Positions 21,668-52,005 of a stretch of DNA of 64,000 bases are shown here, piece by piece. The notes beneath the pieces are model-generated. The model was not told where the DNA came from, searched no databases, and saw nothing but the letters and a program-made list of their open reading frames with translations. Source of the stretch: Terribacillus aidingensis (GTDB lineage: Bacteria; Bacillota; Bacilli; Bacillales; Amphibacillaceae); assembly GCF_040703035.1 (NCBI RefSeq), contig NZ_CP159996.1, forward strand, positions 2,018,001 through 2,082,000. Direction: 5' to 3'. Numbering within the stretch: the stretch's first letter is position 1; every line of letters starts with the position of its first letter. The position numbers and the translations under genes were made by a program.

Positions 21668-21775
21668 CTCCTCTTAAACTCAGACTCGCCATCACAGGCG
21701 CTCGTAAGCTTGAAACCTGATCTGCGCGGTTGTAGCACGGGTGCTAACCTCGTGTAACATACTGATGTTATCATA
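21668..21775 (-). ncRNA. Ribosomal protein L21 leader RNA
   Basis: The roughly 105-base 5' UTR between the rng end and rplU holds several short paired arms (for example CGAGGTTAGCACCCG and GCGCCTGTGATGGCG), as in the L21 leader described in Firmicutes, which is thought to mediate autoregulation. Identified by position and structure, not by a model search. Confidence 0.75.
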
Positions 21776-24903: not shown

Positions 24904-25652
24904 TTACTTCGGTCTAGCAGCTAAAAGGAAACGATGCTGCCGAACGTTTAAATAACCATTTTTCTCTATAAAAAGATGCATCTCGAACAAAGCATCTCGA
25001 TAAGCATCCACTGTGAATTGCGCACTTGCCAAGGAATAGCCTTCAAATAGTAGATGACTGCTCCTATGTCATAAAAACGCATGGACGGAAATGCTTCTGC
25101 CGACTCTAGTATGGTAAACTGATCTTCCAGTTCCTCGACAGCTGTCTGCAGACTCCAATTTTCGAAATCCGGGTTGAGCGGCGCTCCCAGGAGTTGATTG
25201 AGTTCTTTACAATCAGTACCTCCTACTTGTTGCGTAAGGAAAATGGCGTTTTGTTTCAGCACTCTCCATACTTCGCTTACATCGTAAGATTCATGTTTGT
25301 TCAGTATAACCTCAAATGATTCATCCAAGAATGGCAATTGGTCATCTTCCTTTATTTGGACGACATCTACTCCTAATGGTGAAAGTCTGTTTCTGGCGAT
25401 TGGTACATTCGGCGGATAGCTCTCTGTCGCCACGGTGTACTCCGGAAGCGGCAGCAGCTTAGACAGAAACTCTCCCCCGCCGGTTCCCATATCAAGTGCA
25501 CTCCCGGCACCGTAAAGATATTTCCGTGCTTTACTGCCATAGGACCATGGCAAAAGTTCATATTGAACTCGGCCTGTATCCTCGACATAAGAAAAATCCC
25601 ATCCTGTGAAGGCTTTGACGCTGTCTTCCAATAACAAATTAAATAACTCCAT
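24904..25652 (-). pseudogene. Class I SAM-dependent methyltransferase, frameshifted near the C-terminus
   Basis: Rossmann methyltransferase with SAM motif SALDMGTGGGEFLSKL (about 51-66), an AdoMet acidic loop, and the family motif YYLKAIPWQV near the end. As read, the frame ends at 24966 after 228 residues with an odd tail. In the -1 frame, the DNA from about 25022 encodes QFTVDAYRDALFEMHLFIEK, then HRFLLAARPK and a TAA at 24904, which is the normal C-terminus of this family. One base appears to be missing at about 25019-25024 (GTGCGCAA where GTGCCGCAA would restore the frame). It may still make a 228-residue product. Substrate unknown. Its ribosome binding site is buried in a hairpin (25656-25703). 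Confidence 0.82.
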
Positions 25653-25655
25653 CGT

Positions 25656-25703
25656 TCTCCTCCTTTACTTGTGGGCTAGCGTTCAAGTAAATCAGGGAGG
25701 AGA
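25656..25703 (-). promoter_or_regulatory. Hairpin sequestering the methyltransferase Shine-Dalgarno
   Basis: On the minus-strand transcript, UCUCCUCC (25703-25696) pairs perfectly with the SD GGAGGAGA (25663-25656), and UUUACUUG (25691-25684) pairs with CAAGUAAA (25671-25664). A 4-base bulge (CUGA) lies between the two helices on the 5' side and the loop is 12 bases. The stem ends 3 bases before the ATG at 25652. Pairing was read directly from the sequence; regulation is inference. Confidence 0.75.
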
Positions 25704-25729
25704 GCGTATATTGTAGCTGCCCCTTTAAG

Positions 25730-25753
25730 TTATGGATGATACTCCTTGTTCAT
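25730..25753 (-). CDS. Putative 7-residue leader peptide
   Basis: ATG at 25753 encodes MNKEYHP and then TAA. GGAGG (25764-25760) sits 6 bases upstream, a stronger site than most real genes here. The ORF ends about 26 bases before the SD-sequestering hairpin of the methyltransferase. Too short to be a normal protein; a leader peptide of a translational attenuator is the simplest explanation. Confidence 0.55.
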   Translation of the reverse strand: MNKEYHP

Positions 25754-25773
25754 AGTCATCCTCCTTTTTCCTA

Positions 25774-25779
25774 ATTATA
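25774..25779 (-). promoter_or_regulatory. Putative -10 element for the methyltransferase leader
   Basis: TATAAT on the minus strand 10 bases upstream of the leader SD, so transcription would start close to it. No convincing -35 is seen; the preceding sequence is the terminator of the TRIC-type gene. Confidence 0.4.
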
Positions 25780-25781
25780 AC

Positions 25782-25807
25782 AAAAAAAGACCAGCAATTT
25801 GCTGATC
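25782..25807 (-). terminator. Terminator after the TRIC-type channel gene
   Basis: GATCAGCAAATTGCTGGTC (25789-25807) folds on itself and is followed on the minus strand by seven Ts. Confidence 0.88.
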
Positions 25808-51864: not shown

Positions 51865-51910
51865 AAAGCCTGGGAGTAACTGTTAAACAGTTTCTCCCAG
51901 GCTTTTATCC
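51865..51910 (-). terminator. Riboswitch expression-platform terminator
   Basis: GCCTGGGAG (plus 51868-51876) pairs with CTCCCAGGC (51895-51903), with an inner AACTGTT/AACAGTT helix, then TTTTTT on the minus strand. The 5' arm is also part of the aptamer 3' end. Confidence 0.9.
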
Positions 51911-51977
51911 TTCCGTGACACAGTGAATACTGTGAGTTTTCTCTCGGACCAGACCAACCAAGCTGCGGAACCCTAGA
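51868..51977 (-). ncRNA. Guanidine-I riboswitch (ykkC leader)
   Basis: Minus-strand RNA begins CTAGGGTTCCG, later carries GGTCTGGTCCGAGAGAAAAC, and ends with CACGGAAGG and AGCCTGGGAG: the conserved blocks of the ykkC/guanidine-I aptamer. In B. subtilis this RNA controls ykkCD; guanidinium binding prevents the terminator. Confidence 0.93.
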
Positions 51978-52005
51978 AAACATTTAGCAATATTCAATTC
52001 ACTAC

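Follow-up and report, generated by a model that had tools for sequence, protein, structure and literature searches.

The locus considered here lies on the minus strand of the 3.58-Mb single-contig genome of Terribacillus aidingensis, within a 64,000-nt stretch of DNA that was analysed as a whole (the window). A gene for a class I SAM methyltransferase and the Gly_transporter gene flanking it are found between a gene that, from its sequence, we take to be minD-like and a peptidase M23 gene, presumably spoIVFA from its position. The features of the locus are collected in Table 1. The terminator-like hairpin is also present in the Terribacillus consensus fold; TTGTTATAAT is invariant in the eight aligned Terribacillus sequences (8/8), and the transcript is predicted to begin just ahead of the leader mini-ORF. 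Two other minus-strand RNA elements were recognised in the window: a guanidine-I riboswitch (51892-51987, Rfam RF00442, 82.6 bits) and a ribosomal protein L21 leader (21672-21741, RF00559, 54.9 bits).

Table 1. Features of the methyltransferase locus, in window coordinates
Feature	Position	Strand	Basis or remark
Intrinsic-terminator-like hairpin and T-run, ending the upstream Gly_transporter gene	25782..25807	-	gatcagc-aaatt-gctggtc, then TTTTTTT
Extended -10 promoter element TGTTATAAT	25774..25782	-	Sequence; TATAAT 25779-25774 with TGT in front
Leader SD AGGAGG	25765-25760	-	Sequence
Leader mini-ORF MNKEYHP-stop, counterpart of the ...EHxx-stop leader of relatives	25730..25753	-	Sequence and comparison
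Frame past the leader stop, reading LKGAATIYALLPDLLER-stop, without RxPP	25676..25729	-	Translation; place of the putative arrest motif in relatives
RSPP-coding stretch CGC TCT CCT CCC, overlapping the anti-SD	25695..25706	-	Out of the leader frame in the window
Anti-SD TCTCCTCC	25696..25703	-	Sequence, predicted fold, covariation
Adjacent 8-bp helix with loop, TTTACTTG 25691-25684 / CAAGTAAA 25671-25664	25664..25691	-	Sequence, predicted fold
Methyltransferase SD GGAGGAGA	25656..25663	-	Sequence, predicted fold
Class I SAM methyltransferase, family unassigned, ATG at 25652	24966..25652	-	Pfam Methyltransf_11, E 2.2e-06

An initial annotation of this DNA had proposed an erm-like translational attenuator, with the methyltransferase SD paired to an upstream anti-SD, an adjacent 8-bp helix, a leader ORF with a strong SD and a TATAAT close ahead of it. 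All of these features were recovered, the TATAAT as part of an extended -10 and the SD/anti-SD hairpin as part of the predicted minimum-energy fold. The stability of the 140-nt leader is ordinary (z = -1.05; 33 of 200 shuffles fold as well). It had also been pointed out that the leader SD is complementary to the same anti-SD, so that the two pairings exclude each other. The complementarity is real but uninformative, because any GGAGG pairs with any CCUCC; as an exclusive pairing it has the wrong sign, because the gene would be released while no ribosome translates the leader.

Terribacillus supplies the best named matches to the methyltransferase among those listed. The Pfam and NCBIfam matches of the enzyme include no Erm model, and PADLOC gave one match to mad2 (E 1.8e-07) and a chance-level Cas12c. 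A leader ORF and a CCTCC...GGAGG pair are present in all eight aligned Terribacillus sequences; a search of a ninth genome of the genus (G008) gave no match to the methyltransferase gene. In the consensus fold of the eight, none of the 27 pairs had changed on both sides, so that the genus alone gives no covariation.

The leader and the frame beyond its stop codon in relatives

The same layout was found upstream of the methyltransferase in many genera, well beyond Terribacillus. Conservation in relatives, on which the proposed attenuator hinged, is thus observed for both the leader and the masked SD (the window copy is devoid of the in-frame motif described below). The leaders of relatives (e.g. 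MNLLEHNI, MNTFEHDI, MSLLEHET, MRSIEHET, MKYKGKEHNI) are 8 aa long in 59 of 77 cases, taking the closest SD-preceded start. They end in E-H-x-x-UAA, with E in 61 and H in 68 of 81 distinct cases, and a variable spacer then leads to the anti-SD; the place of E-H-x-x is fixed relative to the stop and not to the downstream RxPP motif. The set of 81 includes five rows added by eye (L019, L045, L178, L092 and L210) and excludes two dropped as spurious (L062, L190), and many of its rows are related, so that the counts exceed the number of independent events; L067, in which the frame is interrupted, was left out of one row set.

The leader stop is UAA in 80 of these cases and UGA in one. The base that follows is C in 43, A in 37, G in one and U in none. 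For comparison we used 288 long TAA-ended ORFs from the flanks of the named loci, called mechanically and not from annotation, after which T was found 99 times, A 99, G 47 and C 43. U or G at +4 is therefore rare after the leaders (1/81 versus 146/288; p = 1e-19, a nominal value, as the genomes sampled in the two sets are not quite identical and rows are related). CAA directly follows the stop in 39 of 81 leaders and in 3 of 288 comparison ORFs. A U at +4 favours termination. As UAA generally terminates efficiently, little basal readthrough is to be expected, a point against the model proposed below.

The frame of the leader continues, past its stop, into an R-x-P-P motif. Among 64 unique mini-ORFs, picked by their SD, start and E-H-x-x-stop alone, the downstream sequence being ignored, 61 have an in-frame R[GASPD]PP within 18 codons and before another stop; in the other two frames the motif was found in 0/64 and 0/64. 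Two of the three exceptions are from Terribacillus and carry RGPS or LGPP at the same place, and the third (L087) is spurious. In 3 of 65 cases, the first CCNCC past the stop is not in phase: two have an extra CCTCC before an in-phase RGPP and the other is the RGPS variant. At the anti-SD, the motif is R-G-P-P in 67, R-A-P-P in seven, R-S-P-P in five and R-P-P-P in two of the 81 cases, i.e. the second residue is always G, A, S or P, despite D being allowed in the scan. The Arg codon is AGA (32), CGC (18), CGT (17), AGG (8) or CGA (6); Arg is kept through up to two base changes, so that the constraint bears on the amino acid and not only on the RNA. As an example, the Rossellomorea marisflavi leader (L091) reads MPNQYEP-stop-QRCLWIRGPPRPGNEPE-stop.

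The distance from stop to anti-SD was 2 modulo 3 in all 52 distinct segments (14, 17, 20, 23, 41, 44 or 47 nt), 13 further loci, mostly from Terribacillus, having been set aside because they did not fit the anti-SD pattern used. The start-stop-RxPP arrangement was found in 96 of 187 upstream regions (two probably spurious; some genomes are counted twice) versus 2 of 935 dinucleotide shuffles, and an uninterrupted ORF running from an SD and start to RxPP in 0 of the 187. RxPP was required for the 96/187 and 81-row counts; the 52/52 spacer count and the 61/64 count are the ones that avoid this circularity. Restart after the leader stop was considered as another way of translating the motif and rejected: of the 96 regions, only L016 and L121 have an in-frame ATG, GTG or TTG after the stop and ahead of the motif.

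A few oddities were revealed by eye or by translation. No distinct leader could be recognised in L017 (G057); there, the gene upstream seems to end with ...NETYPDI-stop and its frame goes on as KNTIYIRGAS over the anti-SD region, as if the C-terminus of that gene had assumed the role of the leader. In Fictibacillus arsenicus and in G142 (L073, L136), the leader and RGPP are intact and about 200 nt of extra DNA precede the methyltransferase. In L007 and L129 (Terribacillus, G003), the frame past the leader stop is open into the methyltransferase ORF, as it is in 5 of the 81 distinct cores.

The window copy is itself atypical. Its spacer ahead of the anti-SD differs by a net 2 nt from that of T. 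saccharophilus, where RSPP lies in the leader frame; the RSPP of the window is therefore out of frame with the leader. The window methyltransferase diverges from its family around residue 211: its close relatives align over residues ~1-211 of 228, then differ (window 24966-25020). Interrupted copies of the gene were also seen in G001 (L005), G029 (L028), G079 (L027), G022 (L029) and L067. No relaxed selection was seen over the first 208 codons (dS ~1), dN/dS being 0.085 and 0.097 between the window and two T. saccharophilus copies, and 0.105 between those two. Under such normal purifying selection, any decay must be recent, or else the frame change is a sequencing error; the window copy is a poor example of a good switch, perhaps recently broken, perhaps misread.

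Pairing, geometry and distribution of the element

Covariation, which the initial annotation had put forward as a check, is not seen within Terribacillus and appears across genera, at the bases that flank CCNCC. We scored 73 of the 81 rows (eight were dropped), with the SD register chosen beforehand for best pairing, which biases the counts upwards. The base just 3' of CCNCC, i.e. the third base of the second Pro codon, is paired in 54 of 73 rows (shuffle mean 33.6, maximum 46) with six pair types, and the base just 5' in 46 of 73 (shuffle mean 29.4, maximum 45). Positions further out show, for the most part, little or no excess of pairing. The segments that run from the leader stop to the anti-SD share no general hairpin (mean z = -0.29 relative to mononucleotide shuffles; z is negative in 26 of 52); a few relatives have one, such as the CCGC-AUUC-GCGG found by eye in Sutcliffiella.

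With the stop codon in the A site, the distance between the first base of the P-site codon and the start of the anti-SD is 21-54 nt (81 cores). Measured in the same way, the methyltransferase SD would be 34-71 nt away under arrest at RxP/P (73 of 81). About 15 nt of mRNA on the 3' side of the P site are covered by a ribosome. From these distances, the hairpin should survive a ribosome held at the stop, and one on RxPP would cover the anti-SD and leave the SD free.

A match to the methyltransferase at E <= 1e-30, fragments included, was found in 100 of 397 genomes of the order. The element was present in 51 of the 96 that were read (46 recognised automatically and five by eye, one of the latter, G142, with interrupted spacing to the gene), so that about half of the family is without it. 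Among the named loci, i.e. the best 80 of at least 496 confirmed matches, 42 carry the element; they belong to 15 genera, including Anaerolinea and Schnuerera. On a quickly built tree of 166 proteins, the element label (set on 90 rows, some of them by eye) takes 19 changes versus a mean of 55.0 for shuffled labels, and 23 changes with the automatic labels alone (81 rows), which indicates that the element is inherited, with repeated loss or gain. The methyltransferases of Anaerolinea thermolimosa (L084) and Schnuerera (L088), which belong to different phyla, are sisters and have similar leaders (MYTCFISYGL and MYIYFILYGV); this likeness suggests horizontal transfer of the gene together with its switch.

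A strict DNA pattern for the leader plus anti-SD gave 28 matches in 28 of 397 genomes, all 28 beside the methyltransferase (assigned through coordinate comparison by eye), and its reversed control gave none in the same 397 genomes; no leader shared with other genes was found in this strict-pattern search. A looser pattern, run on 398 genomes of the class, gave seven matches, five beside the methyltransferase and two elsewhere (G197, G511), versus nine for its control. Both patterns are strict and many true copies were missed. As for the gene neighbours, the 14 largest of 367 clusters revealed nothing at a fixed place across genera, and synteny within genera. Two clusters recur across genera at varying distance among the best 80 of at least 496 matches: one, ABC-ATPase-like as we presume from its sequence, at 14 of the 80 loci (8 genera, counting the unassigned), the other, presumably acetyltransferase-like, at seven loci (7 genera).

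A putative readthrough-dependent switch and its relation to known systems

The alignments thus present a frame kept across a conserved stop, a motif at its end, a UAA with a biased +4 context, an overlap between motif and anti-SD, and dedication to one methyltransferase family. We propose, with a probability of about 0.7, that the element is a readthrough-dependent arrest switch, i.e. a translational attenuator that would report termination failure. By default, the ribosome would make the short leader peptide, stop at the UAA and leave, and the anti-SD/SD hairpin downstream would keep the methyltransferase silent. A ribosome that fails to terminate at the leader UAA would read through, in frame, over 3-14 codons, and reach the R-x-P-P encoded within the anti-SD (GGN CCN CCN). 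An arrest of the RAPP/RGPP type, the first Pro codon in the P site and the second in the A site, would then place it on the anti-SD, so that the hairpin could not form; the methyltransferase SD, 34-71 nt past the P site, would be free for another ribosome. Readthrough, arrest, derepression and the nature of the signal are what we infer from the conserved features.

Our leading guess is that the signal is an antibiotic that acts on the ribosome and impairs termination, and against which the methyltransferase would protect. On MsrDL, erythromycin prevents RF1 and RF2 from acting at the UAA, the same complex also resisting elongation (PMC10314930), and azithromycin, and less so amikacin, raises stop-codon readthrough in E. 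coli (PMC10959953). Taken with the data on RAPP-class motifs, this would make a termination-blocking drug a reasonable inducer; on the other hand, a drug-bound ribosome blocked for elongation as on MsrDL would be hindered in reading through. The full scenario is advanced as a tentative and rather doubtful one: a bacterial sensor of nonsense readthrough, in which the leader senses a termination-blocking antibiotic, overrunning ribosomes are caught at a motif sharing its nucleotides with the anti-SD, and a previously unrecognised resistance-type methyltransferase is turned on, in Bacillales and some other bacteria. If the proposed readthrough-dependent switch is right, termination failure would be a new input among the things sensed by bacterial leader peptides, an arrest motif and an anti-SD in the same bases would be a dense solution, and a large methyltransferase family would probably be induced upon termination failure, which offers a handle for finding the drug or the target. 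A search among journal papers, for the most part those free of subscription, found no description of the leader, and no paper on PepNL/NanCL.

The frameshifting of prfB is a feedback loop for RF2, and the leader could likewise close a loop of its own. Readthrough and arrest would then be real, and the methyltransferase would aid termination or fidelity, with a release factor, rRNA or tRNA as its target. Generic termination at a UAA is just what such a leader would measure, and a role of this kind also fits the neighbourhood, in which no gene family (among the 14 largest of 367 clusters) recurs in a constant position across genera. We consider it unlikely: a core termination factor would not be expected to be an accessory gene (100/397 genomes of the order) with several interrupted copies. 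The family, profile and fold searches gave no clear pointer to a release-factor methylase.

Another possibility is a ribosome frozen on the leader UAA itself by a drug or metabolite, as for MsrDL or TnaC, in which case this stall would relieve repression and the RxPP frame would be secondary. The resemblance to MsrDL, also a very short leader ending in a preferred UAA ahead of an accessory gene, is real: the UAA is nearly fixed (80/81), the 8-aa length predominates (59/77), and in MsrDL, where both release factors are blocked at the UAA, UAG or UGA lowers induction (PMC10314930). In MsrDL, the ribosome stays at the stop and control is through transcription antitermination, and the accessible text describes no downstream arrest motif (PMC10314930). 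In the present element, however, a ribosome on the stop should end several nt short of the anti-SD in 81 of 81 cores (at least 21 nt from the P-site codon), the post-stop hairpin is not general, and the conservation of frame and RxPP would be left unexplained. This makes the explanation distinctly unlikely.

The initial annotation's proposal, an attenuator of the erm/cat type in which a ribosome stalled on the leader switches the RNA between mutually exclusive pairings, stands as regards a conserved leader-ORF attenuator in front of a SAM methyltransferase; the erm mechanics do not. The leader ORF with its own SD, the SD masked by an upstream anti-SD (a predicted pairing), the promoter just upstream and the conserved pairing all fit. 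The leader peptide ahead of a methyltransferase and control through leader translation are also shared with erm and with yxjB of B. subtilis, which is tylosin-induced (PMC6851288). However, the 52 post-stop segments revealed no general competing hairpin that a stalled leader ribosome could break, the leader ORF has no stall site near the anti-SD, which is beyond reach of a ribosome at the stop, and the gene product belongs to another sequence family (Methyltransf_11) than the Erm rRNA adenine N6 methyltransferases. Nor does the erm layout explain why a frame is kept across the stop, or why the anti-SD encodes R-x-P-P in that frame (61/64). An erm/cat-type mechanism is thus improbable.

Lastly, that the anti-SD constraint alone happens to code for Pro-Pro with no translation past the stop, CCUCC being required by the SD and Pro codons following in one of three frames, is scarcely credible given the 0/64 in each other frame, the Arg kept through AGN/CGN changes, a second residue limited to G, A, S or P and spacers that differ only in multiples of three.

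Known cases bear on both halves of the readthrough-dependent arrest switch. Readthrough followed by arrest has a counterpart in the human gene AMD1. In its C-tail, stop-codon readthrough is likewise followed by arrest in the extension; there, the pause is at a second in-frame stop 384 nt downstream and, in the accessible text, no separate downstream gene is involved (PMC13025110). As to the arrest motif, RAPP and RGPP are described as versatile, RGPP as the most robust and RSPP as arrest-permissive, and uORFs coding for RGPP or RAPP are reported absent in many Gram-positives, including Bacillota (PMC12992588); a search for export-related arrest peptides included RGPP and RSPP among its motifs (PMC10987492). 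Elements such as the present one would escape screens for arrest uORFs based on annotated, uninterrupted ORFs. With the RAPP/RGPP class (ApdA, ApdP, ApcA and the SecM-like RAGP), the element shares an R-[A/G/S]-P-P in an upstream ORF beside a masked SD, in phase in the relatives and not in the window copy. The members of that class have an uninterrupted ORF, and report protein export. Here, an in-frame stop splits a leader of about eight codons, too short for a signal sequence, from the motif (96/187 upstream regions interrupted in this way, 0/187 uninterrupted), and the codons of the motif are also the anti-SD. To conclude, the element departs from the RAPP class by its lack of a continuous ORF, and from the erm attenuators by its lack of a competing hairpin, yet it would work like a combination of both.
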